Below, in pieces: positions 2,521 to 26,793 of a DNA stretch of 64,000 nt. Position 1 is the stretch's first letter. Every line of letters starts with the position of its first letter. The notes beneath the pieces are model-generated. The model had not been told where the DNA came from. It ran no database searches and saw nothing but the letters and a program-made list of their open reading frames with translations. Made by a program: the position numbers and the translations under genes. Source of the stretch: Oceanobacter kriegii DSM 6294 (lineage in GTDB: Bacteria > Pseudomonadota > Gammaproteobacteria > Pseudomonadales > Oceanobacteraceae); NCBI RefSeq assembly GCF_000422845.1, contig NZ_AUGV01000007.1:124001-188000 (forward strand). The letters run 5' to 3'.

Positions 2521-2533
2521 GGTCTGCCACAGA

Positions 2534-4608: not shown

Positions 4609-4658
4609 TCCCAATCACCCCGGGGTGTTCGACTGAACCCCCGGAAGAACTAACGGCC

Positions 4659-4690
4659 AGCGCCAGCATTTGTTGGCGCTAGCTGTTTTG
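4659..4690 (+). terminator. Rho-independent terminator of the lyase gene
   Basis: Stem AGCGCCA / TGGCGCT with an 8-base loop, followed by a T-rich tail (GTTTTGTTTT), 50 bases after the lyase stop codon. Confidence 0.75.
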
Positions 4691-4735
4691 TTTTATGGCC
4701 CTATTTATTTCAAGCAGGGCTCAAACCAACTCCTG

Positions 4736-5000: not shown

Positions 5001-5110
5001 TAGCATCGAAAGGCAAGCATTTGGTCCGCTAATTTCATATACTCCGCGCTCCATTTTACGCGCCCTATTGAACGGCGTGATCACATCCATCCCTGTGAGG
5101 AAGCCCGGAG

Positions 5111-5980: not shown

Positions 5981-6008
5981 TACGCTGACGGCACAGAGCA
6001 TCAACACC

Positions 6009-6758: not shown

Positions 6759-6761
6759 GTC

Positions 6762-8293
6762 ATGTCGGAAACACTCCCAACAGACGCCCGTTACTTTCGC
6801 TCAGCATCCAGCGCCAGACGTCTGACCGCCATTATTGCGTTATTGGCCATCGCCGCCGCCATGGCGTTGCCTTTTGCCGACATCGAGGTCCACGCCACTT
6901 CCCCCTGGCAGGAACTGGGTCGTATTGGCCTGGGAATGATCACACCGCAGGTGGAAGACATCGGTAGTTTGTTGTCTGCCTTGATGCACACCGTCGCCTT
7001 TGCCTTGCTGGCCGTTGTGATCGCAGCCCCCTTGGGGTTGCTTACCGCACTGATGTTTCATTGGTGGCCGGTGCGGGCTTTCTGTGCCGTCATTCGCTCG
7101 GTTCATGAAATTTTCTGGGCACTGATCTTCATGCAGGTGTGGGGCTTAAGCCCAACCACCGGGCTGCTGGCCATTCGCCCTATACCGGCGTCTTTGCCAA
7201 GGTGTTTGCAGAAACCCTGGCGTTGCAGAACGACACGCCGGAACGCAGCCTGCCACAGGCACCTCGCCTGATTCGCTGGGTCTACACCCGCATCCCACAG
7301 GCCTGGCCAGCACTAAGCCAGTACACCCGTTATCGCTTTGAATGTGCGTTGCGCTCCAGCGCGATTCTGGGGTTTATCGGGTTGCCCACGCTTGGGTTCC
7401 ATCTTGAAACTGCCTTCAAACAAGGCCAGTACAGCGAAGCCGCCGCTCTGCTCTGGAGCTTTATGCTGCTGATTGCGACCATTCGCTACTGGCTACGGCC
7501 TCGTGCGCTGCCCTTGTATGTCATCGGTGCTTTTTTCGCCTTACCCGACACCGTTGGATTCACTAACAGCGGCTATTTGTGGCAGTTCATCAGCTGGGAT
7601 ATATGGCCTGCGCCACTGCGACAGGGTGACTGGACCGGTACAATTGACTGGTATTGGCAAATGCTGTCGGGCCAGGCATGGCAAGGGCTTTGGCAAACCC
7701 TGCTAATTTCGCAATTGGCGCTGTTCCTGACGCTATTACTGGTGTTGCTGGTCTACCCACTGGGCACCGCCAAACTGGCTCCAGCCGCTGCCCGCTGGCC
7801 CGGCAAACTGCTGCTTTTGCTGATGCGTTCGACGCCTGAAATGATTCTGGCGTACCTGTTCTTGCTGCTGTTCGGACCTTCCGGGTTACCCGCGGTATTG
7901 GCATTGGCCATCCATAATGGCGGTCTGATTGGTTTTCTGGTGGCTGGTAAAAGTCAGGCCGAGCATCTGCGCGCTCAATCAAGCTCGACTCAAACTGCGG
8001 CCATCGAATCTCCGCTGCTTCGCTATGCCTATCAGGAAACACCCAACCAATTACCCGCCATGCTTGCGTGGCTGTTTTATCGCTGGGAAGTGATTCTGCG
8101 CGAGAGCGCGATTTTGGGGATTCTGGGAATTGCCACTCTGGGCTTTTACATCGATTCCGGCTTTGAAGAGATTCGCTACGACCGGGCGTTCTTTCTGATT
8201 ATGGTAGCCGCCAGCCTCAATATGCTGGTCGACGCCCTGTCGCGCCGACTGCGCAAACTGGCTGAAGCAGGGCCAGCCGGACGCGAAGCCTGA
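6762..8293 (+). pseudogene. Fused PhnE-type permease with a frameshift
   Basis: Two open frames together spell one membrane protein of about 510 residues. Frame 1 begins with ATG at 6762 and runs coherently to about 7172 (ending near FMQVWGLSPTTGLLAI). The match continues in the -1 frame with PYTGVFAKVFAETLAL and on to 8293. The family motif around the joint normally reads GLLAI-A-LPYTGVFAK, so about four bases seem to be missing near 7173-7176. The first half is one PhnE-like permease; the second half (LLRSTPEMILAYLF...ILRESAILGILGIATLGFYID) is another, so the gene was a tandem permease fusion. Unless this is a sequence error or a recoding site, the transporter is inactive. Confidence 0.8.
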
Positions 8294-8320
8294 AATTGGC
8301 TTCGTGCCCGATCACTCTCT

Positions 8321-8363
8321 ATCAAAAGCCCATCAAAAGCCCATCAAAAGCCCATCAAAAACC
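8321..8363. repeat. 11-bp tandem repeat
   Basis: Nearly four copies of ATCAAAAGCCC between the convergent permease and chemoreceptor genes; the last copy is imperfect. It is probably replication slippage. Confidence 0.85.
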
Positions 8364-8374
8364 TGAAGACAGGA

Positions 8375-10780: not shown

Positions 10781-11130
10781 CCTGTACTCCACGAATCCGA
10801 CGTATAAATAGAGTGGTAACGGAACGTCACGCGGTTGCGACATTTGGACACCTGACCGCACCAAACACTACACTCGCGCCATTCACACAAAGAGCCTAGT
10901 CGGTTTTTGGAGGATTGCTTTACATATCTAATAATAAGTTCGATTACCATCAAATGCGCCAACCCCATAAACCCGGCATTTTGACGAGATTGCTAATAAC
11001 CACAGGTGATTATTGAACCTTTAGCCAGAATCTTACGTTACATGATCAGATTGTCTTACAAATTGTTGTTGACGGAGTTATACAGACGTATACATTCGTA
11101 GGTCACGGAAGACACAAGACCTGGTGCGGC
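10781..11130. other. Divergent intergenic region
   Basis: 350 bases between the chemoreceptor and the PAS-GGDEF-EAL gene. It is AT-rich from 10910 to 11100 and must hold promoters for both genes. I see no gene, clear operator or RNA. Confidence 0.6.
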
Positions 11131-13926
11131 ATGCGGAACCTGAAACACACGCAAGATGGGGACACATTACAAAGCTCGGATATTGGCGCACCCAGCGGCT
11201 CAATGCCGGCCCTGCAGGACCGTCGTTCGGACCATGGGCTCAGAACTGCCATTTCTGCCGTTGAACGACACCTGATCCGCTTTGAGGGCATTGACCGTTT
11301 TCTATCCTGCTGCATTGAACAGCTGATGGTTTTGCTCGATGCAGAAGTCGGTTACGCCTACCTCAGAACCGGCTACAACGCCGACCAGCGCCGGGTTAAT
11401 AAAGAAGAGCAAGAAGATGGCGATGCACTGGTTTATTGGGATTTTCGCATTTTTCTGCAAACCATCGACGGCAAACCCACCGAGCTACCCAACACCTCCA
11501 ACAGCACCTACATCCCCGAATCTTTAACCACCCCCATGATTCTCGGCCACTGCCTTAATGAGCACGCGCCGTTTAACCATGAGATCCCAATCCCCAAAGA
11601 CTGCCCGGAACTGCACAATTACAGTTTGGTACCCGTGTGCGACCAGACCGGTCTGTATGCCGTTCTGATTATCTGCAACGCTCATTCAGATTGCTCAGCC
11701 AAGCTGGAAGGCCGCATCAAGCCCTTTATCAAAGCAGCATCGGCCGTGATGCGTTTTATTGACAGTTCCAAACGTAAGGGGCTGCCTGCACAAACCCTTC
11801 AAGGCGAACGGGATTTTTTGCTGGATGTCGATGACCTGCTGAACAATACCTTTGACGGTTTGGTCATCATCAATGACGACAACCGGGTGGTATTCTGCAA
11901 TGCGGCAGCCGCCAGCATGGTTGGCATTGGTCAAGACGTTATCAATGGCAGTAGCATTGAATTCTATCTACCCGCAGGCTCTCCGCCACTGACTCGCGAA
12001 TTACGGCCAAGAAAATCCACATTGGATACCTGGCACGGCCTGACCCTGCAACACACCAACGGAACCCTCTCAAGTGTGGATGTGCGCTATTTCGACATTT
12101 ACCGGGGTGCCGTATCGCTGCGAGTGCTGGTGCTTCGGGGAGACGCAGACAACTCCCTCAGCAAAGAAAGCAGCAGCGCCATTCACTACAGTTTCCGGGT
12201 GCTCACCAATGTTGCACCGGTTGGCATTATCCAGTTAAACCGCGACTGGGAATGTACTTATGTTAACGACACCTGGTGTGAATATTCCAAGTTATCGCCT
12301 TCTGAATCGTTGGGTATTGGCTGGATAAACGCGCTCCATGAACTCGATCGTCAAACTGTTCTGGAGTCGATCCGTTCAACGTTGATCAGTCAGGATAAAT
12401 ACGAAGGTGAATTTCGCCTGCAAACGCCCTATGGCTCCACCCGTTGGGTGAAAGCCAACGCCTGCAATCTGTATACAGATACGGGCAGTGTCAGTGGCTT
12501 GATCATGACCTTCAGTGATATCACTGATCACCTTAAAACCGAACAGGCACTGCGCAACCTGGCGGAACGGGACCAGCTTACGGGCCTGACCAATCGTGCG
12601 TTTTTCAGCAACCGGATGGAGGAGTCGCTAAAAAATATTCAGCGCCTGGAAGACGTTTCCCTGATGTTCCTGGACCTTGATGACTTCAAACACATTAACG
12701 ACACCCTGGGACATGATGCTGGAGACGAGCTGCTAAAAGCCGTGGCGACCCGACTGCAAGAAAACCTTCGTAAAGTCGACACCATTGCCCGTCTGGGGGG
12801 CGACGAATTTGTGGTACTGGTGTGCTCGCTAACCAATCAGAACCACTTGCACTTGATTGCTGACAAAATCATCGAAATATTCAAACAGCCGTTCAGGATA
12901 CTCGAGCGTAGCCTCTATATTACCTGTTCCATGGGTATTGCCAGCGCCAGTGGCCTGAGTACCAGCAGCACTCAATTAATGAAACAAGCCGACGTTGCGC
13001 TCTACAAAGCCAAAGCCGCCGGCCGTAACCAATACCGGTTTTACACTCGCGAGATGGACAAATACGCCGACCTTCATATTCATCTGCGACAGTCATTAAA
13101 AGAAGTAGGCCGCAACGATTTCTCGGTGGTGTATCAACCACAAGTGGACATCCGCACGGGCCGCATTGTTGGCATGGAAGCCCTGACACGCTGGAACTGC
13201 GAGGCTGCCCCGCACATCGGCCCGGATATTTTCATGAAAATGATTGAGCAGTCCGGCTTGATTGAATACTTCTCCAGATGGCTACTGGACAACGTGCTGG
13301 CCACTGCGGCCCGCCTGCAAAAATACCTGGGTAAAAACCTGCGTTTGTCGATGAACCTGTCTGGCCGGCAGTTTCACAATGAGTTTCTGGCCGATGAACT
13401 GATTGGTGAGTGCAAAAACCGTGGTATCGAGCCGTCAGTGATTGAACTGGAAGTCACTGAAACAGCCCTGATCGATGACACCGAGCTGGCCCAGAGAACC
13501 CTGGGGCAGCTGCGCAGCGCCGGTTTTCATATCGCACTGGACGACTTCGGTACCGGCTATTCTTCGCTTGCTTACCTTCGAAAAATGCCTATCGACACCC
13601 TCAAAATCGACAGCTCGTTTGTACAGGATGTATTGGAAGATCAGGAAGATGCTCAAATCGTCGAGGCCATTCTGGCGTTGGCGAAAACCCTGCGGCTCAA
13701 CATTATTGCCGAAGGTGTCGAAGATACCCGCACAAGTCACTGGCTAAAGGTAAGAAATTGTTACATCCATCAAGGTTTCTTATATCATCGGCCCATGACA
13801 GAAGCCGAGCTGACCCAAAAGCTCAAGCACCAACACTCTTTACCCAATCTGGTATCGGATTCACATCCCGGTACCCAGTTGTCCATTTTGCAGGACGACC
13901 ATTGGGAACCTGGCCAGGAGGCTTGA
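11131..13926 (+). CDS. GAF/PAS-PAS-GGDEF-EAL cyclic-di-GMP enzyme
   Basis: 931 residues, cytoplasmic, with no membrane segment. An N-terminal GAF-like region (about 50-200) is followed by PAS 1 (about 228-335), PAS 2 (about 350-470), GGDEF (about 480-645) and EAL (about 665-905). The cyclase motif GGDEF is intact with the inhibitory-site RKVD eight residues before it. The phosphodiesterase shows EALTRW, MNLSGRQF, LEVTETAL, DDFGTGYSS and IAEGVED, so both activities look possible. The chemotaxis hybrid gene begins three bases after the stop, which implies co-transcription. The ATG at 11131 has no strong ribosome site. Confidence 0.93.
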   Translation: MRNLKHTQDGDTLQSSDIGAPSGSMPALQDRRSDHGLRTAISAVERHLIRFEGIDRFLSCCIEQLMVLLDAEVGYAYLRTGYNADQRRVNKEEQEDGDALVYWDFRIFLQTIDGKPTELPNTSNSTYIPESLTTPMILGHCLNEHAPFNHEIPIPKDCPELHNYSLVPVCDQTGLYAVLIICNAHSDCSAKLEGRIKPFIKAASAVMRFIDSSKRKGLPAQTLQGERDFLLDVDDLLNNTFDGLVIINDDNRVVFCNAAAASMVGIGQDVINGSSIEFYLPAGSPPLTRELRPRKSTLDTWHGLTLQHTNGTLSSVDVRYFDIYRGAVSLRVLVLRGDADNSLSKESSSAIHYSFRVLTNVAPVGIIQLNRDWECTYVNDTWCEYSKLSPSESLGIGWINALHELDRQTVLESIRSTLISQDKYEGEFRLQTPYGSTRWVKANACNLYTDTGSVSGLIMTFSDITDHLKTEQALRNLAERDQLTGLTNRAFFSNRMEESLKNIQRLEDVSLMFLDLDDFKHINDTLGHDAGDELLKAVATRLQENLRKVDTIARLGGDEFVVLVCSLTNQNHLHLIADKIIEIFKQPFRILERSLYITCSMGIASASGLSTSSTQLMKQADVALYKAKAAGRNQYRFYTREMDKYADLHIHLRQSLKEVGRNDFSVVYQPQVDIRTGRIVGMEALTRWNCEAAPHIGPDIFMKMIEQSGLIEYFSRWLLDNVLATAARLQKYLGKNLRLSMNLSGRQFHNEFLADELIGECKNRGIEPSVIELEVTETALIDDTELAQRTLGQLRSAGFHIALDDFGTGYSSLAYLRKMPIDTLKIDSSFVQDVLEDQEDAQIVEAILALAKTLRLNIIAEGVEDTRTSHWLKVRNCYIHQGFLYHRPMTEAELTQKLKHQHSLPNLVSDSHPGTQLSILQDDHWEPGQEA

Positions 13927-13929
13927 TTC

Positions 13930-16900
13930 GTGAACGACGAAAACGGTAACGCACCGTCCCACTACATTGGCATAGGTGCATCTGCCGGCGGCTTGGAGGC
14001 GTTGCAGGAGTTCTTCAAGCACGTCCCGTCTGACACCGGCGCGGCATACATCATTGCCCAGCATCTGTCCCCCGACTTCAAAAGCATGATGCCCGAGCTA
14101 TTGGCCAAACACACTGATATGCCAATCCATCAGGTGTCCGATGGCATCACCGTCGAAGCGAACAGCATTTACCTGATGCCGCCGCGTACCAACATGCTGA
14201 TGGCCGAAGGCTGCTTGCTGTTGTCCGAACAGATGAAAGACGCCAATGTCCACCACCCTATAGACATTTTCTTACGCTCGTTAGCCAAAGATCAGCATCA
14301 CAACGCCATTGCGATTGTGCTGTCGGGCACCGGTAGTGACGGCACCAAAGGCATTCAGGCCATGAAAGAGTCGGATGGCATGGTGATCATCCAGGAACCC
14401 GGCTCGGCCAAATTCGACGGCATGCCCACCAGCGCCTATCGCACAGGCCTCGCCGACCTCGTTCTGACCCCACAGGAAATGGGTCCGAACCTGGTCAACT
14501 ACATCAACATGGCACGCAGCACCGATCAGGGTAAATCCATCCGCTTCCATTTGAATGAGGCGGAAGAAACCATGTCGGAAATATTCCGACTGCTGAAAGA
14601 TCAGTCCTCGATCAACTTCAGCCAGTACAAGGCTTCTACCGTTGCCCGCCGTATTGAGCGCCGCCTGACCATCAATCAGCTGTCATCACTGGATGCGTAC
14701 CTGCGCTTCCTGTTGGAGTCGCCGAAGGAAATCCAGATCCTTAACAAGGAACTGCTGATTGGTGTTACCCGCTTCTTCCGCGACAAGGAAGCCTACGACC
14801 TGATTGAACGGGACGTAGTACCCAAAATTGTTGAACGGGCGGTAAAAGACAAGGACAACGTCCGTTTGTGGATTGCAGGCTGTTCCACTGGCGAAGAAGC
14901 CTACTCGTTAGCCATGCTGGTCGACGAACACATTCGTAACAAGGGTTACACTTGTGATGTGAAGGTGTTCGCCACCGACGTCGACGAGCAAGCCATCGTC
15001 GAAGCCAGTGCTGGCCGCTACCATCAGGACATCGTTCAGGACATCCCGGAAGAACGCCTGCACTATTATTTTGAACCCAAAGGCGACACCTGGGTGGTCA
15101 GCTCGCGCTTGCGCCAGATGGTGATCTTTGCGGCTCACAATATGATTGAGGACCCCCCGTTCTCAAACATCGACCTGATTTCGTGCCGCAATGTGCTGAT
15201 CTATTTCCAGCATGCGGCACAGAAGAAGGTTCTGGCGTCGTTGTATTTCTCGCTGAAGAAAGACGGCTATCTGTTCCTGGGGTCATCGGAGTCGCTGGGC
15301 GAACTCAGCACACACTTTGATACCCTGAACGAACGCGCCAAGATTTTCGCCAAGGTCAGCAACAAGCGCGTGCCTATTGGCAGTGCACCGCCGCGGCGTG
15401 CCGATGGCATTGCCTACACTCAGGCCAATCAGGCCATGGCTCCGGTATCGACCATTTTCCGGCCCAATCGCAGCAACGGAAAAAATCAGATGTCAGCCAT
15501 TCTTGAGCGTATTCTCGAGCAATATGCGCCAAACTGCGTGGTATTGAACGACCTGTTTGAAGCCATTCATTTGTACGGTGATGTATCTCCGTACCTAAAA
15601 GGCATTCGTCCGGGCCGAGTGAGCCATAACATCAAGGAAATGGTGAACGACGAGCTGAGTATTGCCATCTCAACCGCACTATATCGCTGCGAAAAAGACG
15701 GCGAAGACGTGTTTTACAAAGACGTTGTGATGGGTGCTGACACCGAACACCAGCACAGCATCGATATTTCCGTGCTCAACGTACGCGATCCCGAGCACAG
15801 CAACAGCCCTACGTTCTACGTATTGCAGTTCTTGCCTCAAAGCGCCGACATGACCGCCAACACCAATCAGGTGAAGGTGTCGTTTGACGCTACCGAGCAG
15901 AGCCGTCAGCGTATTCGTGACCTTGAGCAGGAATTGGTCAAGAAGCAGGAGCACCTGCAAGTCACCATTGAAGAGTTGGAAACCACCAACGAAGAACTGC
16001 AATCGGCCAACGAAGAATTGATGTCGGCCAACGAGGAGCTGCAAAGCACCAACGAAGAATTGCAGTCAGTGAACGAAGAACTGTACACGGTTAACAGCGA
16101 ATATCAGGAAAAGATTTCCGAACTGACCGAGGTGAACAGCGACCTCGACAGCGTCATGAACGCCACTGACATCGGCATTGCCTTCCTCGATGAGCATCTG
16201 ACCATCCGTAAGTTCACGCCGCCAACCGCTCGTTACATTCACCTGCGCGGTACCGATATTGGTCGTCCGTTCCACCACATTTCCCATGAACTGGATTACC
16301 CGGACTTCCTCAACGACATTGCCAAGGTCAGCAAGGGTGAAGGCGCTATTGTCAAAAGCACCAGCGCCCACAACGGCCACGCTGTACTGGTTCGTATCCT
16401 GCCGTACTACAAAGGGCACCCTCAGGTTGTTTCCGGCGTATTGGTAACCATCACCAACATTTCCCGTCAGCAGTTCATCGAGTCAGAATTGCGGCGCACT
16501 CAGGAAACCCTGCGCAAGGCCATGGGTGACCGCATGATCGCCGCTGGTAAAGAACCGGCATCGCCGATTCGGGTGAAGGTATTGTTGGTGGATGACGACC
16601 TGGTCGACCGCAAACTGGTACGTCGTTTACTGAACGAAACGGACAATCGTGAGTTCATTATTGATGACTTCGAAACCGCCGAGGACGCGCTGGACGCCGC
16701 CAAGCGCGAAGACTTTGACGTCTTCCTGCTCGACTATCGTTTGGCAGACACCACCGCCGCCGACTTTGCTGCACAGCTGCGCAATCAGGGCATTCGCACA
16801 CCGATCATTGTGCTGTCTGGCTTATCTGACGTATGGCAGGACTTCGATTTTGGCGTCGGAGGTATTTACGATTTCCTCAGCAAGGATCAGTTATCTGCCC

Positions 16901-16974
16901 CACTGCTGGTGCGCAGTATCGACTATGTGATTGAGCGTCATCGTATGACCGAAGTGATCGAGGGACTGAGCTAG
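13930..16974 (+). CDS. CheB-CheR fusion with PAS and C-terminal receiver
   Basis: 1014 residues starting at GTG. The order is CheB methylesterase (about 10-190; Ser of GASAGG, His of AQHLS and Asp of GTGSDG complete the triad), then CheR methyltransferase (about 210-480; GCSTGEEAYSLA binds S-adenosylmethionine, and SCRNVLIYF is present). Next is a coiled coil of repeated NEEL heptads (about 660-740), a PAS domain (about 740-850) and a receiver domain (about 875-1005) with VDDD and phospho-acceptor Asp in LLDYRLAD. A kinase domain is absent, although PAS plus coiled coil usually leads to one in this family. It would set receptor methylation or signal sideways, and its pairing with a c-di-GMP enzyme suggests linked control. 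Confidence 0.93.
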   Translation: MNDENGNAPSHYIGIGASAGGLEALQEFFKHVPSDTGAAYIIAQHLSPDFKSMMPELLAKHTDMPIHQVSDGITVEANSIYLMPPRTNMLMAEGCLLLSEQMKDANVHHPIDIFLRSLAKDQHHNAIAIVLSGTGSDGTKGIQAMKESDGMVIIQEPGSAKFDGMPTSAYRTGLADLVLTPQEMGPNLVNYINMARSTDQGKSIRFHLNEAEETMSEIFRLLKDQSSINFSQYKASTVARRIERRLTINQLSSLDAYLRFLLESPKEIQILNKELLIGVTRFFRDKEAYDLIERDVVPKIVERAVKDKDNVRLWIAGCSTGEEAYSLAMLVDEHIRNKGYTCDVKVFATDVDEQAIVEASAGRYHQDIVQDIPEERLHYYFEPKGDTWVVSSRLRQMVIFAAHNMIEDPPFSNIDLISCRNVLIYFQHAAQKKVLASLYFSLKKDGYLFLGSSESLGELSTHFDTLNERAKIFAKVSNKRVPIGSAPPRRADGIAYTQANQAMAPVSTIFRPNRSNGKNQMSAILERILEQYAPNCVVLNDLFEAIHLYGDVSPYLKGIRPGRVSHNIKEMVNDELSIAISTALYRCEKDGEDVFYKDVVMGADTEHQHSIDISVLNVRDPEHSNSPTFYVLQFLPQSADMTANTNQVKVSFDATEQSRQRIRDLEQELVKKQEHLQVTIEELETTNEELQSANEELMSANEELQSTNEELQSVNEELYTVNSEYQEKISELTEVNSDLDSVMNATDIGIAFLDEHLTIRKFTPPTARYIHLRGTDIGRPFHHISHELDYPDFLNDIAKVSKGEGAIVKSTSAHNGHAVLVRILPYYKGHPQVVSGVLVTITNISRQQFIESELRRTQETLRKAMGDRMIAAGKEPASPIRVKVLLVDDDLVDRKLVRRLLNETDNREFIIDDFETAEDALDAAKREDFDVFLLDYRLADTTAADFAAQLRNQGIRTPIIVLSGLSDVWQDFDFGVGGIYDFLSKDQLSAPLLVRSIDYVIERHRMTEVIEGLS

Positions 16975-18084
16975 TCACCACCCCGGTGACTTCATTTCCA
17001 CCAGCCGACTGATCAGTCGGCTGGTGTCTTCCTCAAGCGCCGGGTTCTCCAGCAGTTCCAGGATCGGCACCTCTGAACTGATAAACAGCCGGCGCCGGTA
17101 TTCATAAGCCACATCCACCAGCCAGATAAACCGACGCAGTGCATTCGGGTTTTCCAGCTGTTTATGAAAGATGCCCGTCAGCACCAGCGTATCGAAAGCT
17201 TCTACAAGCTGCAGGTAATCAAGGTGACTTCTTGGCCCTACGCAGGTTTCTTCAAAATCGAGCCAAACCAGCCCTTCGTTGTTACTGATTTCTTCCGTCT
17301 CGTTTGCGCCAGACTCAACCGATTGATATTCATCCGTTCTTGGGCGACACAAGCGAACAGGCATAGTGCGATTACGAAGCGGTATTTCCTGGGATGTTGA
17401 CTCATCTGGCAACGAGCAGCCCAGTGTATTGGCAATGGCTTGATCGGCCGTCAGGGAGACTGGCGCCAAATGAAATTCCGGCCAATCGTCAATCGCGCAT
17501 CCCAAATTACGGTAACGGTAATCGCGTTCTCCGTTCAGCGTCATCACTTCAAAGTGGTGGTGAATCATGGCGATGCAATTCAGTGCTCGATGGTGCACAT
17601 CCGGGTCTGGCAGCAAGTCATCGGGGGTGTAATTTGACGTCAGAACCACAAACACCTGGCGCTCAAGCAATACTTTCAGGAATCGCTCGAACAGAATTAC
17701 ATCGGCAACGTCGTGCAGGTGAAATTCATCCAGGCAAAACACCTCGCAGCTGTCTGCCAGCTCATACGCCATCATGGTCAGATAGTCGGTTTGACCGATG
17801 TTGGCGTTCATGCCCTCGTGCAAATCACGCAGAAAATTATGATAGTGAACACGACGTGCCTGCGGACCCGATGTGGCCACCAAGGCATCCATCAGCATGG
17901 TTTTTCCGCGCCCGGGGCGCCCCCACACATAGGCGCTTTTCATGCGTTTCGACAGCAGACGTCCGATGCCGCCAGCGCGCTGGCTGGACGCCCGTTTCAT
18001 CAACATGGACAAGCTGTCGCAGACCTGCTGCTGAGCAGAATCGGGCTGGATATTGTGGCGTTGGAAATATTCGGTGATTGGCAT
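16975..18084 (-). CDS. zapE: Cell division protein ZapE (AFG1-like ATPase)
   Basis: 369 residues, AFG1/ZapE family AAA-like ATPase that acts on FtsZ rings during stress or late division. Walker A is WGRPGRGKT (about 54-62) and Walker B is VFCLDEFHLHD. The VVLTSNYTPDDL sensor segment and the MIHHHFEV stretch are typical of the family. It lies head-to-head in stop codons with the CheB-CheR gene and is a single gene. Confidence 0.93.
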   Translation of the reverse strand: MPITEYFQRHNIQPDSAQQQVCDSLSMLMKRASSQRAGGIGRLLSKRMKSAYVWGRPGRGKTMLMDALVATSGPQARRVHYHNFLRDLHEGMNANIGQTDYLTMMAYELADSCEVFCLDEFHLHDVADVILFERFLKVLLERQVFVVLTSNYTPDDLLPDPDVHHRALNCIAMIHHHFEVMTLNGERDYRYRNLGCAIDDWPEFHLAPVSLTADQAIANTLGCSLPDESTSQEIPLRNRTMPVRLCRPRTDEYQSVESGANETEEISNNEGLVWLDFEETCVGPRSHLDYLQLVEAFDTLVLTGIFHKQLENPNALRRFIWLVDVAYEYRRRLFISSEVPILELLENPALEEDTSRLISRLVEMKSPGW

Positions 18085-18269: not shown

Positions 18270-18995
18270 TCAATCAGACCCAATCAGGTCCAGCCAGCGC
18301 CCAACGACGGTTTTGGCGAACTCGGTTTGAGCGCGCTGATACATGCTGAAATCACCGTCCAGCTGTTGAATCAAGCGGGCAATGACCGATTGTGGCTGGT
18401 TCGGATTGCCAATTAACTCGCGTCGATTCCAGGCATCGACAATGGCAGGCGTCACTTCAAAATGGCACTGAAAGCCCCACACCTGCTCACCAATCCGAAA
18501 TGCCTGATTCTGCACCCGACTTCCGGTCATCAAGCTGACTGCTGCTGGCGGCAGATCGAAGGTATCCGAGTGCATTTCAAACAGCATCTGCTGCTGTTCC
18601 AAACCTGCCAACAGCGGATCATTCGCTGCGGCCTTGGTCAATTCGAGCGCCGTAAAGCCGTATTCCAGAAACCCCTGCGGCCGCACTTTGCCACCGTAGG
18701 CATAAGCAATCGACTGGCATCCAAGACACGAACCCAGCACCGGCTTCTGTGCCTGGTCAAACGCACGTATGCACTCAGCCAACTCGTCGAAATAGGGTTT
18801 CAGCATTGGGTCATGCACACTGTGCTCACCGCCAAAGACGATCATGGCGTCGAAATCGCTTACTATCGGTAATCCATGATGACGGCGTCGGTAAAACCAA
18901 TGCAGTTCACCGCCACGAGATTCAATCACCTCACCATACCGGCCACACTCAACAGGGCCGTCCATACCACCGGCCATAATGGCTGCAATTTTCAC
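18270..18995 (-). CDS. Class I glutamine amidotransferase / gamma-glutamyl hydrolase-like protein
   Basis: 241 residues, GuaA-N type. The triad is complete: Cys90 in GSCLGCQ, His178 and Glu180 in FQCHFE. Such stand-alone proteins either feed ammonia to a partner or hydrolyse gamma-glutamyl amides; the PuuD and AtdA2 proteins are known examples in gamma-glutamylation pathways. It is the third gene leftward of a glutamine-synthetase-like ligase and a dioxygenase, which favours hydrolysis of a gamma-glutamyl intermediate. A strong terminator-like hairpin separates it from the dioxygenase, so it may be expressed at a lower level. Substrate not known. Confidence 0.82.
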   Translation of the reverse strand: MKIAAIMAGGMDGPVECGRYGEVIESRGGELHWFYRRRHHGLPIVSDFDAMIVFGGEHSVHDPMLKPYFDELAECIRAFDQAQKPVLGSCLGCQSIAYAYGGKVRPQGFLEYGFTALELTKAAANDPLLAGLEQQQMLFEMHSDTFDLPPAAVSLMTGSRVQNQAFRIGEQVWGFQCHFEVTPAIVDAWNRRELIGNPNQPQSVIARLIQQLDGDFSMYQRAQTEFAKTVVGRWLDLIGSD

Positions 18996-19015
18996 AAGCC
19001 AGCTCCTTAACGTAT

Positions 19016-19061
19016 AAAAAGGCCTTCCAAGGGGGCAGATTCAGAATGAATCAGGAAGGCC
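19016..19061 (-). terminator. Terminator or attenuator between dioxygenase and amidotransferase
   Basis: Read leftward: GGCCTTCC, a loop holding an inner GATTCA/TGAATC stem, then GGAAGGCC and five T. It starts 18 bases after the dioxygenase stop and ends 20 bases before the amidotransferase start. Confidence 0.75.
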
Positions 19062-19078
19062 GTAAACCGGATTGGGCC

Positions 19079-19933
19079 TCAGCCCTTCAGAAATTTGTCC
19101 AAACCCGGGCTGCGGTAGCCGGATTTGGTCCAGGTAATCGGGAAATAGGATTCATCCACCTCGTTGGAATCGAGCTTTTTGTACTTGCCATAGATTGGCC
19201 CGTTGCCCACGTCCATCTTGTCCGGGTTGAACTGGATGTCGTGCTGGAAGAAATGCATCGCCATGGCTCGGCGTGGCACATCCGCACGATTCACTCGCGA
19301 GCCGTGCCAGGTCCAGCCGTCATGGAAAGCACAGCCACCTTTCGGCACAACCACAGGCACCAGCTCCAATTCCAGATCATTGGCCTCGGCCCATTCCCGT
19401 GCCTCTTTAAGGTCATCCTCCGGGCCGTGGAACTGCATGATGGGTTTGGCCTCACCCCACTTGTGGGAGCCTTTGATATATACCAGCGTGCCACCTTCAG
19501 CAGTGGTGTCGTCGAGCGCCAGCCAGCAACTGACCAGCTCCGGCTTGTCGATCCAGAGGCTGTACATGCTGTCCTGATGAAAACCAATCGAACGGCCAGC
19601 CGGTGGCTTCCACAACAGGTTATCGACCATCAGCCGACTGCCTTCCCAACCGCCCAGCTGTGCGCACAAACGGCCGATATTTTCAGACAAGCCGGTGCGG
19701 GCAACGGTTAAATCCGACTTCCAGGCATTACAAATCTGCTTGGTATACGGCGGGTTACCTTCCGGTAGGTTGACTTCATCTGGCTTGATACCAGTTTCAA
19801 ATTCGCCATTCACAAACAGTGGTTCAAAGCGTTCGCGAATGGCATCGGCCACATCCGCCTCAACCAGCTTTTCGACGATCAGAAAACCGTCGCGGCGAAA
19901 TTGTTCGACCTGTTGTTGACTGAGTTCAATCAT
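19079..19933 (-). CDS. Phytanoyl-CoA dioxygenase family Fe(II)/2-oxoglutarate oxygenase
   Basis: 284 residues from ATG 19933, chosen because AGGAG lies eight bases upstream. The double-stranded beta-helix iron site is visible: His119-x-Asp121 (GFHQDS) and His210 (WTWHGS), with Arg/Asn residues following that usually bind 2-oxoglutarate. PhyH-family members hydroxylate small molecules such as phytanoyl-CoA, ectoine or phosphonates. Its place between a glutamine-synthetase-like ligase and a gamma-glutamyl hydrolase-like gene suggests that it oxidises a gamma-glutamyl amide or the free amine; this is inference. Cytoplasmic, no signal peptide. Confidence 0.85.
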   Translation of the reverse strand: MIELSQQQVEQFRRDGFLIVEKLVEADVADAIRERFEPLFVNGEFETGIKPDEVNLPEGNPPYTKQICNAWKSDLTVARTGLSENIGRLCAQLGGWEGSRLMVDNLLWKPPAGRSIGFHQDSMYSLWIDKPELVSCWLALDDTTAEGGTLVYIKGSHKWGEAKPIMQFHGPEDDLKEAREWAEANDLELELVPVVVPKGGCAFHDGWTWHGSRVNRADVPRRAMAMHFFQHDIQFNPDKMDVGNGPIYGKYKKLDSNEVDESYFPITWTKSGYRSPGLDKFLKG

Positions 19934-20056
19934 GGGATCTCCTCGCTCGTCCTCTTCCTTTCTTCGATAGGCACGACGAGCCGTACTCTGAATTGGGTTA
20001 AATACGTCCTGGTTTTGAAGCTGATACGTCGGTGACGCGGTTGTCGTCGGCACAAG

Positions 20057-20088
20057 GTCGTATCAGTAAAAAGTCGTATCAGTAAAAA
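20057..20088. repeat. 16-bp tandem duplication at the ligase stop codon
   Basis: GTCGTATCAGTAAAAA occurs twice without a gap and overlaps the last codons of the ligase gene. Loss or gain of a unit would only move the 3' end, so it looks like slippage. Confidence 0.85.
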
Positions 20089-21449
20089 GTCAGATAGCGT
20101 TCGATTTCCCACTCGGAAACCGCCCGGTGGTATTCATGCCATTCGTGACGCTTGAGTTTGATAAAGCTGTTGACGAGATCAGGCCCCAGCGCATCTTTTA
20201 ATACGCTGTCGGCATCCAGCTCATCGAGGGCGTCGTTGAGGTTTTCTGGCAGGCGTTCGACGCCCATGTCAGCGATGGCCTGCAATGACAAATCGTAGAA
20301 ATTGAGAGACTGGGGCTCTGGCGCTGCCAGTTCACGGTCTACCCCATCCAGCCCGGCGGCGATGATTGCCGCGGTGGCGAGGTACGGATTCATGGCGCTG
20401 TCGCCAATACGAACTTCCAAACGTCCATAAGGAATACGAACCATGGCTGAGCGGTTGTTATCGCCATAGGCAATAAACACCGGCGCCCAGCTTGGCCGCT
20501 CAGCCGTACCGACCATCAAACGCTTGTAGGAATTAACCGACGGACACAGCAAAGCGCACAGTGCCTTGGCGTGCTGCATCACACCGGCAATAAAGTGATA
20601 GGCCAATTTTGACAGCCCCATACCGGACGGGTCTGAGTCGTCCTGAAACAGGTTGGTACCGCTGCCATCAACCATCGAGCAGTGAACATGCATGCCATTA
20701 CCGGTGGTGTCGGCATTAAGCTTTGGCAGGAAGCTGGCAATGGCGCCCATGTTATTGGCTATTTCACGGGCCGCCATTTTGAAGAACAGTATGTTGTCGG
20801 CCGACTGCATCGCTTCGTCATATTTGAAATTCATTTCAAACTGACCGTTAGCGTCTTCGTGGTCGATCTGATAGACCTCCAGCCCGACTTTTTTCAAAGA
20901 CTGGTGCATACCTTCCAGAAACTCAGTGTTGCGGGTGATGCCACGGTAGTCGTATGCAGGGTGCTTCATAACGTCTGTGCTATCGAACGGCACGACCGCC
21001 CCGTTTTCATCACGGCGCAGCAAATACAACTCAGGCTCCAGACCAGTCATCATGCGCCAGCCTCGACGCTGCAAACGCTCGGTCTGTGCCGCAAGTACAT
21101 TGCGCGAATCCATATGGCAAATTTCACCGGCCACAGTGCCTTCGCCTCGCAGGGATGCATACCCTGGCATCCACGGGAGCAATCGCAGTGTTTTCAGGTC
21201 CGCAATCAACATGTATTCAGGGTCCTGCGGTGACATATCAAAGCCCTGCACCGCCGCTCCCGCGAAACCAGCTCCTTCGATGGTCAGGCCCTCAAGGCAC
21301 TCAACGGGTACCGATTTGCTTTTGACACTGCCGTGCATGTCCACAAACTGCACCAGCAAGTAAGACACCTGGTGCGCAGTCAGAAAGTTTTGTGCCGCCT
21401 CAAGGGCGTTGTTTTCCGGGCAAACCCAGATACCGGATACTTCAGACAT
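20079..21449 (-). CDS. Type III glutamine synthetase-like ligase
   Basis: 456 residues from ATG 21449 (GAGAGGATGGA upstream). Beta-grasp N-terminus with VDMHGSVKSKSVPVE, then the GS catalytic barrel: GLEPELYLLRR, the GQFEMNF glutamate loop, GNGMHVHCS, the RLMVG/RPSWAP nucleotide and glutamate loop, and VRIPYGRLEVRIGD. It resembles GlnT (type III GS) and the gamma-glutamylmethylamide/gamma-glutamylputrescine synthetases, not housekeeping GlnA: it lacks the adenylylation-site region. It could make glutamine or join glutamate to an amine. Context with an oxygenase, an amidotransferase and an AraC regulator favours amine ligation. 140 bases separate it from the regulator gene. Confidence 0.87.
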   Translation of the reverse strand: MSEVSGIWVCPENNALEAAQNFLTAHQVSYLLVQFVDMHGSVKSKSVPVECLEGLTIEGAGFAGAAVQGFDMSPQDPEYMLIADLKTLRLLPWMPGYASLRGEGTVAGEICHMDSRNVLAAQTERLQRRGWRMMTGLEPELYLLRRDENGAVVPFDSTDVMKHPAYDYRGITRNTEFLEGMHQSLKKVGLEVYQIDHEDANGQFEMNFKYDEAMQSADNILFFKMAAREIANNMGAIASFLPKLNADTTGNGMHVHCSMVDGSGTNLFQDDSDPSGMGLSKLAYHFIAGVMQHAKALCALLCPSVNSYKRLMVGTAERPSWAPVFIAYGDNNRSAMVRIPYGRLEVRIGDSAMNPYLATAAIIAAGLDGVDRELAAPEPQSLNFYDLSLQAIADMGVERLPENLNDALDELDADSVLKDALGPDLVNSFIKLKRHEWHEYHRAVSEWEIERYLTFY

Positions 21450-21588
21450 GATTCCATCCTCTCTTGTCGGGATGGATTCAGTGTCGTGGAAAGTGAGGGA
21501 AAAGCCTTTGACCGCAGAAACCACATAGTTGGCATCTGGTGCCAACAGCTGTTTAAAACGCCAAAGGCTGCTTAAGAAATGAAAAATG

Positions 21589-22680
21589 CTACTGCAACCG
21601 TCTCCAATCCGACGGATTAAGTTTCTTCCAGCGCACAAAGGCACGGGTAAAAGCGCTGATTTCGGAATAGCCCAACCGGAATGCCACCTCTGAAATACTC
21701 AGCTGATCGTATTGCAGATAATACTCCGCCAGGGCCTCACGCACTTCCTCAACCAGCGACGAAAAGGAATAACCTTCCAGGGCCAACTGGCGCTGCAACG
21801 AGCGTCGTGACAGCAGCACCCTACCCGCCACTTCATCAATTGTGGCGCCACCGTCTGCCAACAGCTCAATCACTTCACTTTTGACTCGCTGACTCAGCGA
21901 CAAGATTTGCGGCTGTTTTGAGGCCAATTCGAGCATCGATCCGAGAGCAATGTTGTGCAGCATACTGTTGGCATTGGGCATCGGCTGTTCAAGGCACTGG
22001 CGTTTAAAGACGATCACATTGCGCTGTTCGTTAAAGCGGATATCGCACTGAAACGCATCCCGGTGCGGTGATCTTTGCACCAGCGCCGGATGCTGAAAAT
22101 GCACTTCCAGCGGGTTCCAGTGTTGCCCCATGCCCCGTTTCAGCACATTGGCGAACATGCCGACCGTCAGCTCAGCATCCTGACGTCGATCCATGATTTC
22201 GCCGTCCAGCAGCTTGTATTCAAGAAAACAAAGATCATCCTGCTGATCGAATGTCAGCAAGCTATTGCGCTGGAAGACATGAAAATTCTGCACCATGCCA
22301 GCAATGGCATCCTTAAGGGTTGGTGCACTGATGGCGTGATAGCCATACAAGCCCAGCCCTTCCGGTTGAAACTGGTTACCGAACCAGAGGCCGAAATGCT
22401 CATTGCCCGTCGCCCGCGCCGCTTCGTGAATAGAACCACAGTAGTGTTTCAGGGATATATGCCGATTGGGCTGGTTGTACAAACCACTGTCCAGACCTGC
22501 ACGACTTAATACGCTGGCACTGCTGGCACCCTGCGAGTCAATAAAATCTTCAAGCCCCACCGTGACCGATGCCAGCACACCAGAACCGACCAGTGAAGAG
22601 GAGCCAGAACGTGCGCGACAGACTTTTTCCGCCAGACCATGGGAGTTGTTGTTTTGGAGATTGGAAGACGATAGCGACAT
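21589..22680 (-). CDS. AraC-family transcriptional regulator
   Basis: 363 residues. The N-terminal part (about 40-240) resembles the arabinose-binding-type domain of OruR/QhpR-like regulators; the C-terminal 100 residues hold the two HTH motifs, ending in the typical RLGYSEISAFTRAFVRWKKLNPSDWRR. It is encoded upstream of, and in the same direction as, the ligase-dioxygenase-amidotransferase genes and is the likely local activator. The inducer is unknown; OruR and QhpR respond to ornithine and amines, which fits the context. An inverted repeat abuts its start codon. Confidence 0.9.
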   Translation of the reverse strand: MSLSSSNLQNNNSHGLAEKVCRARSGSSSLVGSGVLASVTVGLEDFIDSQGASSASVLSRAGLDSGLYNQPNRHISLKHYCGSIHEAARATGNEHFGLWFGNQFQPEGLGLYGYHAISAPTLKDAIAGMVQNFHVFQRNSLLTFDQQDDLCFLEYKLLDGEIMDRRQDAELTVGMFANVLKRGMGQHWNPLEVHFQHPALVQRSPHRDAFQCDIRFNEQRNVIVFKRQCLEQPMPNANSMLHNIALGSMLELASKQPQILSLSQRVKSEVIELLADGGATIDEVAGRVLLSRRSLQRQLALEGYSFSSLVEEVREALAEYYLQYDQLSISEVAFRLGYSEISAFTRAFVRWKKLNPSDWRRLQ

Positions 22681-22681
22681 G

Positions 22682-22720
22682 GCTTCACCAAAGGGAATCT
22701 TTATTTACCCTTGGTGAAGC
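22682..22720. promoter_or_regulatory. Inverted repeat at the AraC-regulator start
   Basis: GCTTCACCAAAGGG (22682-22695) faces CCCTTGGTGAAGC (22708-22720), one bulged base in the stem. It begins one base before the regulator ATG. It could be an autoregulatory operator or an mRNA hairpin hiding the ribosome site; no other purine-rich site is visible there. It may also end the FKBP transcript, though no T tract follows. Confidence 0.65.
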
Positions 22721-22765: not shown

Positions 22766-23248
22766 TCAGGATTCAAAATCGAGCAGTTCAACATCAAAAA
22801 CCAGCGTACTGCCCGGCTTAATCTTGCCCGCACGCTGTTTGCCGTACGCCAGTTGCGCCGGGATGAAGAGTCGGTTCTTCTGGCCTTTGGTCATCAGCTG
22901 AACGCCCTCAGTCCAACCAGGAATCACCTGATTCAAACGAAAGCTGATTGGCTCGTTGCGCTCTACTGAGCTATCGAACACGGTGCCATCAATCAGTGTG
23001 CCGTGGTAATGCACGGTAACCTTGTTTTTTGCACCTGGGCGCTCACCTTCTCCACCCGTGCCTTCGTTCAAGACTTCGTATTGCAAACCCGATTCGGTGG
23101 TCACCACACCGTCCCGCTGTCCGTTTTCTGCCAGAAAGGCATTGCCGGCTTCCATGTTTTCTTCTGCGCCCTTGCTGCCAACGCCGGCTTTTCTCAGCGC
23201 GTAGCCAAACAGTACGGCGATGATGGCGACTGCAATAATTTCAACCAT
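22766..23248 (-). CDS. FKBP-type peptidyl-prolyl isomerase, membrane-anchored
   Basis: 160 residues. An N-terminal hydrophobic segment (EIIAVAIIAVLFGYAL) acts as an anchor or uncleaved signal, then the FKBP domain at about 50-158 with VHYHGTLIDGTVFDSS, VIPGWTEGVQLM and PAQLAYG. Folding helper that accelerates prolyl isomerisation in the cell envelope. It follows the DUF599 gene by 11 bases, so the two are probably co-transcribed. Confidence 0.92.
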   Translation of the reverse strand: MVEIIAVAIIAVLFGYALRKAGVGSKGAEENMEAGNAFLAENGQRDGVVTTESGLQYEVLNEGTGGEGERPGAKNKVTVHYHGTLIDGTVFDSSVERNEPISFRLNQVIPGWTEGVQLMTKGQKNRLFIPAQLAYGKQRAGKIKPGSTLVFDVELLDFES

Positions 23249-24149: not shown

Positions 24150-24872
24150 TCAGCTGTCGTCCGAACGTACGTTGACACGCTTCATCAGTTCTTCCGCAGT
24201 TTCCTTGCGCTCAGAATAACGGTCGACCAGAAAATCACTTCTGTCACGGGTCAGATAGGTGAACTTGACCAGTTCTTCCATCACATCGACGATACGGTCG
24301 TAGTAGCCAGACGGCTTCATGCGGTCGTTGTCGTCGAACTCCGCCCAGGCCTTGGCCACAGACGATTGATTCGGAATGGTGACCATGCGCATCCAGCGCC
24401 CTAATACGCGAAGTTGGTTCACCACGTTGAACGACTGCGAGCCACCGCACACCTGCATCACCGCCAGCGTTTTGCCCTGAGTGGGCCGCACCGCACCAAG
24501 GCTCAGTGGAATCCAGTCGATCTGGGCTTTCATAACACCCGTCATGGCGCCGTGTCGCTCCGGCGAGCACCACACCATGCCTTCTGACCACTGCACCAGA
24601 TCCCGCAGCTCCTGCACTTTCGGGTGCTCAGCATCGGCATCGTCTGGCAGCGGTAAGCCGGACGGATTAAAGGTTCTGGTTTCACACCCCATGGCTTCCA
24701 ACAAACGCGCACATTCCTCGGTCACCAGACGGCTGAATGAACGCTGACGCAATGATCCATACAGCAGCAGAATGCGTGGTTTATGGGTCGACGCCGGGTT
24801 CTGGAACAACACCTCTGGCGTGGGTACATGAAACAGGTTGTCTTCAATGTTTGGCATTTCGTGTTCAGACAT
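24150..24872 (-). CDS. arsH: Arsenical resistance protein ArsH (NADPH-dependent FMN reductase)
   Basis: 240 residues, flavodoxin-like. [10 protein letters not shown] binds the FMN phosphate, and [21 protein letters not shown] is the ArsH hallmark. Members oxidise trivalent methylarsenicals and reduce oxygen or other acceptors. Last gene of arsR-arsC-acr3-arsH with an 11-base gap to acr3. Confidence 0.95.
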
Positions 24873-24883
24873 ACTCTACTCCC

Positions 24884-25903
24884 TTATCCGTTGAACCAAT
24901 GACGGGTACGATTAGCAAAGGCCACCAGCGACAACATAACAGGCACTTCCACTAGCACACCCACAACGGTTGCCAACGCTGCACCGGATTGCAGGCCAAA
25001 CAACGCAATGGCGACGGCAACGGCCAATTCAAAAAAGTTACTGGTGCCAATCATGCAGGCTGGCGCGGCCACGTCGTGGCTAAGCTTCAGGCGCTTGGCG
25101 GCCCAATACGCGATGGCAAAAATGCCGTAGGTTTGCAGCATCAGCGGAATGGCGATCAACAGAATATCGAACGGTTTTTCTACAATGACAGGCGCTTGCA
25201 AGCCAAACAGAATCACTACGGTGGCGATCAGGCCAATGATGGAAAAGGGTTTAATGGTCGCAATCAGGCTATCCAGCTTGCTGGTATCCTGACCTTTCAC
25301 CAACGCTTTGCGCGTGAAATAACCGGCGACCAGTGGCAATACCACGTACAGGACGGTCGACAGCAACAGGGTTTCCCACGGCACAGTGACGTCGGATATT
25401 CCCAGTAGCAGCGCCGCAATCGGCGCGAAGGCAAACACCATGATGATGTCATTGATGGAAACCTGCACCAGAGTGTAGTTAGGGTCGCCTTTGGTCAGCT
25501 GACTCCAGACAAACACCATGGCGGTACACGGAGCAACGCCCAGCAAAATCATACCGGCGATGTATTCTGACGCCGTCTCGGGATCGACCCAGCCAGCAAA
25601 GAACACTTTGAAGAACAGCCAACCCAAAGCGGCCATGGTGAAGGGCTTGATCAACCAGTTGATTACCAGCGTCAGCAACAAACCCTTGGGCTTTTTACCC
25701 ACATCCTTGATGGAGGCGAAGTCGACCTGCACCATCATGGGGTAAATCATTAGCCAGATAAGAACTGCCACCACCAGATTGACACTGGCCACTTCCAGCG
25801 CGGCAATGGCTTCAAACAGTCCCGGTAACATCAGACCGAGGCCGATGCCCGCGAGAATACCGGCACCGACCCAAACGGTAAGAAAACGCTCAAAAATACC
25901 CAT
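24884..25903 (-). CDS. acr3: Arsenite efflux transporter Acr3
   Basis: Inner-membrane arsenite exporter of the BART superfamily, 339 residues and ten predicted membrane helices. The Acr3 motif [15 protein letters not shown] holds the conserved Cys, and [23 protein letters not shown] follows near the C-terminus. ATG at 25903 gives the normal family length; the longer frame upstream overlaps arsC. Gaps of 10 and 11 bases to its neighbours show a tight operon. It exports the arsenite made by ArsC. Confidence 0.95.
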
Positions 25904-25913
25904 TCGCCAGCCC

Positions 25914-26387
25914 TCAGTAGACGTCAGCCAGAGATTGCAGCTGCGCGCGAATCTCATCAGCAGTCAGCGACGTATCCAACGTTTTAACGGCTTCCAGGCG
26001 CTTGGTCAGAGTCTGGATCAGCTCGGCAAACGCCGCATCCTGGGCTTCGCCCTCTGGCATTTTGGAAGGGTCTTTCAGGCCCCAATGCACTTTCTTGCCT
26101 TCACCAATCCACAGCGGACAGGCTTCATTGGCCGCGCTGTCGCATACCGTCACCACATAATCCGGGGCGAATTCTTCAAACTCATCCCAGGACTGACTTT
26201 GCAGATTGGCAGTATCAATGCCGTGCTGTTGCAACGCGGCAATGGAGCCCGGATAGACAACACCGGCAGGCTGGCTACCCGCACTGCGCACTTCAAAGCC
26301 GCCACCCAGCACATGGCGGGCAACGGCCTCAGCGCAAATACTGCGACAACGGTTATGGGTACATACAAACAGGAATTTCATGGGCAT
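25914..26387 (-). CDS. arsC: Arsenate reductase, low-molecular-weight phosphatase type
   Basis: 157 residues. The N-terminal loop [10 protein letters not shown] is the C-x5-R phosphatase signature that binds arsenate; further Cys residues ([13 protein letters not shown]) would complete the disulfide relay, as in thioredoxin-linked ArsC. ATG at 26387 is preferred because AGGA precedes it and the upstream frame runs into arsR. Reduces arsenate to arsenite for Acr3. Confidence 0.94.
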
Positions 26388-26427
26388 GTTCCTATAAGAA
26401 AGAGATGGAAATAGCGAATTGTCTGAA

Positions 26428-26793
26428 TTAAAAGTTGGCGCTTTCACGCGGCTGACAGCAGCCGGGGGCCTTGGCTTTCGGGGCACAATCACCCAGCCGC
26501 TCTACCGCTGACTGAATGTAGCTGCCATAGGCCGATGCCAGGCTGGCAAGCACCGCATTAGCCGCAGCATCCAGCGTCGGGCTAACCCGGTAGTACACCC
26601 ATTGGCCACGCTTTTCACCGGTAAGCAGTTCTGCCGTTCGCAATTGCGCCAAATGACGGGACACCTTCGGCTGGCTAAGGTCCAGCGCTTCGGTCAGTTC
26701 ACAAACGCACAGCTCGCCGTAGCGTTTCACCAGCAAGACGGTTGCCAGACGCGTTTCGTCGGCAAGCAGCTTGAGTAATTCAACAGGTTGCAT
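26428..26793 (-). CDS. arsR: ArsR-family arsenic-responsive repressor
   Basis: 121 residues, winged HTH. ELCVCELTEALDLSQPKVSRHLAQL carries the metalloid-binding Cys-Val-Cys on the recognition-helix side, as in E. coli ArsR, so it should release DNA on binding arsenite. A second Cys pair lies at the C-terminus (PGCCQP). First gene of the operon and its likely repressor. Confidence 0.95.
   Translation of the reverse strand: MQPVELLKLLADETRLATVLLVKRYGELCVCELTEALDLSQPKVSRHLAQLRTAELLTGEKRGQWVYYRVSPTLDAAANAVLASLASAYGSYIQSAVERLGDCAPKAKAPGCCQPRESANF

Follow-up and report, generated by a model that had tools for sequence, protein, structure and literature searches.

The stretch of DNA analyzed here (the window; 64,000 nucleotides) is part of contig 5 of the 4.5-Mb genome of Oceanobacter kriegii DSM 6294, and it carries a cluster of four genes that may form a compact pathway for the oxidation of methylamine. 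All four lie on the minus strand, running from position 22680 down to 18270, and encode an AraC-family regulator resembling QhpR (21589..22680), a ligase similar to gamma-glutamylmethylamide synthetase (GMAS; 20079..21449, 456 amino acids), a PhyH-type Fe(II)/2-oxoglutarate (2OG) dioxygenase (19079..19933, 284 amino acids) and a stand-alone class I glutamine amidotransferase-like hydrolase (18270..18995, 241 amino acids, GTG start). This arrangement of four genes in the same direction had been proposed from inspection of the letters and open reading frames alone (the sequence-only reading), and it was borne out, with each product passing a family cut-off. Judging from the sequences, the most likely start codons are the ATG at 21449 for the ligase, in place of the 21644 start of its longest open reading frame, and the ATG at 19933 for PhyH, in place of 20053. 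Alignments of five relatives each begin at ATG 19933 for PhyH and at ATG 21449, or at most six residues away from it, for the ligase. Given these starts and 18995 for the amidotransferase, the intergenic gaps are 139, 145 and 83 bases. By its PhyH sequence, the nearest named relative is Oceanobacter.

The regulator combines Arabinose_bd and HTH_18 domains and scored 316.9 bits against the QhpR model NF049968 (cut-off, 250). QhpR is the regulator of quinohemoprotein amine dehydrogenase genes, and we take the match to suggest only that this is an AraC protein of the amine type.

The ligase matched TIGR03105 with 582 bits (cut-off, 469.6), which places it in the family model used here for GMAS. 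The sequence-only reading had called it type III glutamine-synthetase-like; this label is misleading because TIGR03105, itself named "glutamate--ammonia ligase," also captures gamma-glutamylmethylamide synthetases. Its top solved relative was the GMAS of Methylovorus mays (MmGMAS; 9QUR, 559 bits), followed by GmaS of Rhodovulum (RhGmaS; 7CQL, 288 bits). An excerpt of the RhGmaS study (PMC7948447) gives the methylamine pocket as Lys30', Tyr147, Gln175, Asp177, Glu179, Glu186 and Asn188 and reports Ala48' where glutamine synthetase has the ammonia-binding Asp50'. When we matched these excerpted positions to the RhGmaS numbering by eye from a printed alignment (offset, 20), all seven pocket residues (K30, Y147, Q175, D177, E179, E186 and N188) were invariant in 17/17 cluster ligases (the window and 16 species), and Ala replaced the ammonia-binding Asp50' in every one of them. 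The same seven residues and the Ala were present in 19/19 ligases of the clade that contains the gmaS-mgs ligase of the window genome, and eight other ligase positions are fixed differently between the two clades. The ligase failed the gamma-glutamylputrescine synthetase model (268.8 bits versus a cut-off of 650). A GMAS is the best reading of the ligase, given MmGMAS as its top solved relative, the intact methylamine pocket and the lack of the ammonia-binding Asp.

We placed these sequences in a rapid maximum-likelihood tree built from 62 ligases, from which duplicate, short and stop-bearing sequences were excluded, in which long branches were flagged and which contains neither MmGMAS nor RhGmaS. 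The 17 cluster ligases formed a single clade (Shimodaira-Hasegawa-like approximate likelihood ratio test [SH-aLRT], 100). This clade belongs to a group of 37 rows (SH-aLRT, 99) together with the 19-row gmaS-mgs clade, which represents the operons of this order, and one Hydrogenophaga sequence; the branching order within the group was not resolved (support, 49). MgsC-adjacent ligases also occur in another branch of the tree (L172, Acidocella; L numbers denote individual loci).

The dioxygenase scored 95.6 bits against PF05721 (cut-off, 22), and its AlphaFold2 model has a mean predicted local distance difference test score (pLDDT) of 95. The closest solved structures are MysH, SnoK and SnoN, with MysH (9C9N, a mycosporine-like amino acid dioxygenase; about 24% identity) ranking first both by sequence and by Foldseek E value. 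MysH cleaves a C-N substituent oxidatively, on a substrate of secondary metabolism. Residues H119, D121, H210 and R221 were invariant in 53/53 aligned sequences of 45 to 90% identity; 35 of the 62 loci below 65% identity were selected for this alignment, and 34 were used after removal of L037 because of a stop codon. From the alignment to MysH and from general knowledge of the family, we presume that H119, D121 and H210 are the iron ligands and that R221 binds 2OG. The protein thus has the domain match, the fold, the HxD...H motif and the distal Arg of PhyH-type Fe(II)/2OG dioxygenases. We rejected ectoine hydroxylase and methylphosphonate hydroxylase as its identity, with scores of 21.2 versus 336.5 and 23.4 versus 500 bits against the respective NCBIfam equivalog cut-offs. 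A search of a plasmid collection at an E value of 1e-30 returned no plasmid-borne copy.

The amidotransferase scored 49.2 bits against PF00117 (cut-off, 22.8) and stayed under the cut-off of all 14 NCBIfam families listed for it. Its AlphaFold2 model (pLDDT, 93.6) is closest in fold to DnfC (8KHS) and other stand-alone glutamine amidotransferases, with a further resemblance to Arabidopsis gamma-glutamyl peptidase 1 (9K7I); identities are 31% to DnfC and about 20% to the peptidase, and partners and substrates differ. The triad C90, H178 and E180 was invariant in 17/17 sequences, and the active-site residues named in the sequence-only reading for both this protein and PhyH are therefore conserved. 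With a Cys-His-Glu triad and no synthase partner domain, the protein has the features expected of a putative class I amidotransferase-type gamma-glutamyl hydrolase.

Scanning 84,980 species yielded 117 confirmed PhyH relatives, and among the matches listed we analyzed 80 loci, 18 with PhyH at 65 to 90% identity and 62 at 44 to 52%. The 18 close loci come from Oceanobacter, Marinobacterium, Amphritea, Neptuniibacter, Vreelandella, Hydrogenophaga, Acidocella, Methyloligella and less precisely named metagenome-assembled genomes (MAGs). AraC, ligase, PhyH and amidotransferase genes stand in line in 14 of these 18 other species, always with AraC as the first gene, and 11 of the 14 four-gene clusters show an overlap of 1 or 4 bases between the PhyH and amidotransferase genes. 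The two Acidocella loci have the ligase-PhyH pair with a divergent amidotransferase gene, and AraC was not found there. PhyH follows the ligase directly in 16/16 species with a cluster ligase. The sequence-only reading named separation of the three enzymes in related genomes as evidence against itself; instead, the trio is found together in 16 of the 18 species. These loci differ in their surroundings and come from Alpha- as well as Gammaproteobacteria, so that a pathway of ligase, dioxygenase and hydrolase is well supported as a unit. PhyH was detected in 6 of 113 related genomes including the window genome; the other five have all four genes together, and in two of them the flanking genes of the window were not found within the fetched 16 to 18 kb. 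Of 369 evenly drawn Gammaproteobacteria, only three had a PhyH at an E value of 1e-40, namely, the window genome and two with 44 to 50% identity.

The cluster tends to co-occur with genes for methylated amines. The window genome itself carries on contig 10 (L124) what looks by eye like a complete gmaS-mgsABC operon, with the second ligase, folD and a sarcosine-oxidase-type gene; at the cluster locus, mgsABC genes are not adjacent to the ligase. We defined MgsC by homology to the gene of this operon, identified by order and sequence and not by a named model; an NCBIfam scan of the Marinobacterium lacunae copy (L018) gave a sub-threshold glutamate synthase match only. MgsC was present at 71 to 96% identity in 15 of the 18 close genomes, compared to 30 of the 369 Gammaproteobacteria at an E value of 1e-140 (including 23 with at least 69% identity; the window genome is part of both counts). 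The same 15 genomes contain a protein resembling Tdm, the trimethylamine N-oxide (TMAO) demethylase, which in five passed the cut-off of 1100 bits and in ten scored 1009 to 1077; the protein of the window genome scored 993. Fisher values for these co-occurrence counts are descriptive only and not true probabilities, since the counted genomes are related and relatedness inflates the contrast. Methylamine dehydrogenase (PF02975), considered as the alternative route, had no match in 19 genomes and none in 14 controls either, so that this result is no evidence of absence.

In several cases the linkage is physical. In M. lacunae, MgsC (92% identical to that of the window genome), FolD and one more gene directly precede the cluster, and the same contig carries a second GMAS and a TMAO-demethylase-like gene, everything within about 26 kb. 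The cluster of a Hydrogenophaga MAG (L031) adjoins a TMAO demethylase gene (1182 bits versus 1100). At L045, a 47%-identical PhyH has trimethylamine monooxygenase (846 bits versus 675) on one side and, on the other, a ligase of TIGR03105, an Amt gene and a TMAO demethylase gene (1245 bits versus 1100). This MAG contig also carries, at 1877-13783, glutamate-synthase-like genes and a cupin, and its Amt is divergent.

Three cluster genomes lack MgsC: Neptuniibacter sp. CAU 1671, Vreelandella boliviensis LC1 and an Alteromonadales MAG. They yielded only 33 to 37% identical matches to MgsC and no Tdm match at an E value of 1e-150, and the cluster ligase is their sole TIGR03105 protein at an E value of 1e-120. 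The Vreelandella scaffold is only 6.2 kb, so contamination is possible for that copy. In all three, a divergent Amt-type transporter gene lies directly downstream of the cluster (L024 8622-9974, L025 8610-9962 and L028 4485-5837); the products score below the TIGR00836 cut-off, are 52 to 54% identical to the L045 Amt and are candidate methylammonium transporters. We rejected the notion that all Amts near the cluster are of one kind: that of M. lacunae shares 83 to 85% identity with the Amts encoded next to two gmaS-mgs operons (L126 and L128), and that of the Hydrogenophaga MAG is an ordinary Amt that passes the TIGR00836 cut-off.

For the wider family, we searched 31 of the 62 genomes with a PhyH at 44 to 52% identity, many of them MAGs or single-cell genomes and several of them Pelagibacteraceae. 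A TIGR03105 ligase was found in 27 of the 31 (26 over the cut-off) versus 50 of 398 genomes of the phylum, and an MgsC-like protein, with the limit set here at an E value of 1e-130 instead of the 1e-140 applied to the 369 Gammaproteobacteria, was found in 29 (19 at 69% or more and 10 only at 51 to 56%). Outside this set, the genomes of L032, L040 and L045 were searched for MgsC, and those of L040 and L045 also for Tdm and TIGR03105; L041 (G133) belongs both to the set of 31 and to the first MgsC search. The L045 genome has one TIGR03105 match, and both L040 and L045 genomes have a TMAO demethylase over the cut-off. An amidotransferase of 26 to 29% identity adjoins PhyH in 23 alphaproteobacterial loci, including Pelagibacteraceae L054, L074, L085 and L086, and L052 (5962-7831); the flanks fetched for these 23 loci yielded no ligase. 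In two MAGs of two phyla, L032 (4131-7864) and L035, two adjoining glutamine-synthetase-like genes directly precede a PhyH of 50 to 51% identity; in L032 both score under the TIGR03105 cut-off. Perhaps these pairs follow the same logic with another amine.

The sequence-only reading, which is partly supported, envisaged one gamma-glutamylation pathway for an unknown amine. The single pathway agrees with the conserved ligase-dioxygenase-hydrolase unit, and the amine need no longer be left blank, as the genomic evidence points to methylamine: the type of ligase, its pocket residues, the linkage to MgsC and to trimethylamine and TMAO genes, and the Amt-type transporter in some relatives all argue for it. 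Gene families, catalytic residues, conserved gene order and co-occurrence with methylated-amine genes are what the sequences themselves provide. On this footing we lean, by a little, toward a compact methylamine-oxidizing pathway that works without N-methylglutamate. The ligase would use ATP to join methylamine to glutamate, yielding gamma-glutamylmethylamide. PhyH would then hydroxylate the N-methyl carbon with Fe(II), O2 and 2OG, giving N-hydroxymethylglutamine along with succinate and CO2, and the carbinolamide would collapse to glutamine and formaldehyde, a kind of breakdown that is general chemistry. Finally, the amidotransferase-like hydrolase would split glutamine, or else the hydroxylated amide, into glutamate and ammonia and thereby return the carrier. 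The AraC protein would switch the operon, and in some relatives an Amt-type channel would bring methylammonium in. We infer here all substrates and products, the order of the second and third steps, transport and regulation. It is possible, if rather doubtful, that the whole PhyH subfamily, including the proteins of Pelagibacteraceae (SAR11) and other marine bacteria, acts as a gamma-glutamylmethylamide oxygenase that releases glutamine and formaldehyde, which would make it a third and widespread route of methylamine oxidation.

Several observations weigh against this pathway. MgsC, and so probably the N-methylglutamate route, is present in 15 of the 18 cluster genomes and in the window genome, which makes a second methylamine route look redundant. 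As a guess, most owners may keep both because the oxygenase route may deliver nitrogen directly as glutamine; the cluster could also handle a different amine. With another short alkylamine such as ethylamine, the chemistry would be the same, PhyH hydroxylating the carbon next to the nitrogen of a gamma-glutamyl alkylamide and releasing an aldehyde and glutamine. The eight positions fixed differently between the cluster and gmaS-mgs ligases would fit this, as would the substrates mentioned in excerpts of the two GMAS studies, in which RhGmaS accepts ethylamine and propylamine (PMC7948447) and MmGMAS has been applied to ethylamine and is broader in scope (PMC12588301). The linked genes, mgsC-folD and those for TMAO demethylase and trimethylamine monooxygenase, are, however, specific for one-carbon substrates, and the pocket residues are identical in both ligase clades; we consider another alkylamine unlikely. 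The evidence from Tdm is itself qualified by the fact that 11 of the 16 Tdm-like proteins, including that of the window genome, fall under the family cut-off. Instead of acting on gamma-glutamylmethylamide, PhyH might serve a side branch of the N-methylglutamate route by demethylating N-methylglutamate or dimethylamine. Amine demethylation is common among 2OG oxygenases, and MgsC-like proteins occur in nearly all of the wider-family genomes searched (29/31). N-methylglutamate is nevertheless not expected in the three cluster genomes whose MgsC matches are only 33 to 37% identical, and this makes it an unlikely substrate of PhyH; without a Tdm match, no internal dimethylamine from TMAO is expected there either. 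The invariable position of PhyH directly after the ligase likewise speaks against such a side branch, which we regard as distinctly improbable. The wider family also weighs against the methylamine pathway: MgsC at 69% or more is confined to 19 of its 31 genomes, and the 51 to 56% type found in 10 others may be a paralogue; the L032 genome has a ligase-PhyH pair yet no MgsC at an E value of 1e-30, and the PhyH of L040 lies beside a contig-edge ligase fragment only, in a genome with no TIGR03105 match at an E value of 1e-120.

In one Acidocella locus (L027), genes for an SBP_bac-type solute-binding protein and a Hist_deacetyl-family (histone-deacetylase-type) hydrolase follow PhyH. Acetylpolyamine hydrolases belong to this fold, and the neighborhood would also fit a pathway in which PhyH oxidizes a gamma-glutamylated polyamine or acetylpolyamine and the amidotransferase releases the product. 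By eye, this set of neighbors was found in L027 only among the 18 close loci, with a short transporter remnant in L026, and both Acidocella genomes also carry MgsC and Tdm-like proteins. Because the ligase is far under the gamma-glutamylputrescine synthetase cut-off and, among the 18 close loci, polyamine-type neighbors were seen in Acidocella only, we assign polyamines a very low probability. We judge it equally far-fetched that the genes are neighbors with no common pathway, the ligase being an ammonia-type glutamine synthetase, as the name of its model would have it, and PhyH acting on an unrelated metabolite. The two Methyloligella loci (PhyH at 65 to 66% identity) do stand without AraC, amidotransferase or a cluster-type ligase nearby, L029 having no more than a 32%-identical glutamine-synthetase-like gene some 5 kb from PhyH. 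PhyH of L030 adjoins an XRE-cupin regulator that is 37 to 44% identical to those beside two gmaS-mgs operons. Against unrelated neighbors stand the gene order kept across Gamma- and Alphaproteobacteria, with overlapping genes in most four-gene clusters, the absence of the ammonia-binding Asp from the ligase and the co-occurrence of the PhyH family with TIGR03105 ligases.

The proposed methylamine pathway shares with the N-methylglutamate pathway (gmaS-mgsABC-mgdABCD) a GMAS-type ligase as the first enzyme, the ligases of both falling into one group of our tree, as well as Amt and folD genes near both kinds of locus. It differs in having a PhyH dioxygenase and a class I amidotransferase in place of N-methylglutamate synthase and dehydrogenase. 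The isopropylamine (ipu), putrescine (puu) and aniline (tdn/atd) routes ligate the amine to glutamate, oxidize it with flavin or Rieske enzymes and hydrolyze the gamma-glutamyl amide with class I amidotransferase-type enzymes. The cluster would follow the same three-step scheme; its oxidation gene, however, encodes a non-heme Fe(II)/2OG enzyme, and no flavin or Rieske oxidation gene is present among its four genes. An excerpt of a June 2026 paper on marine trimethylamine catabolism (PMC13390433) describes two methylamine routes, direct oxidation and gamma-glutamylmethylamide/N-methylglutamate. Among the matches listed from open-licence papers, with subscription papers and preprints outside the search, we found none joining a 2OG dioxygenase to gamma-glutamylmethylamide, which is not proof that none exists. 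If the proposal is correct, a self-contained ligase-dioxygenase-hydrolase operon would constitute a third bacterial methylamine route; it would explain how methylamine is used by genomes that have a single GMAS gene but lack mgs genes, and it would alter the reading of gmaS as a marker. If extended to the PhyH subfamily, the route would turn methylamine nitrogen straight into glutamine and would be missed by surveys that use mgs/mgd or methylamine dehydrogenase as markers. Because the wider PhyH family occurs in Pelagibacteraceae genomes, a function common to the family would bear on the cycling of carbon and nitrogen in the ocean. A direct test is possible with three enzymes and one cheap substrate.

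The cluster is flanked by genes for ZapE (16975-18084) and an FKBP isomerase (22766-23248), neither with an evident link to it. Farther out, translations inspected by eye suggest an arsenic-like cluster at 24150-26793, with an ArsH-like NADPH-FMN reductase, an Acr3/ArsB-like permease, an ArsC-like phosphatase and an ArsR-type regulator, and, at 11131-16974, a large GGDEF/EAL-type protein followed by a CheB-CheR-PAS fusion with a terminal receiver domain.

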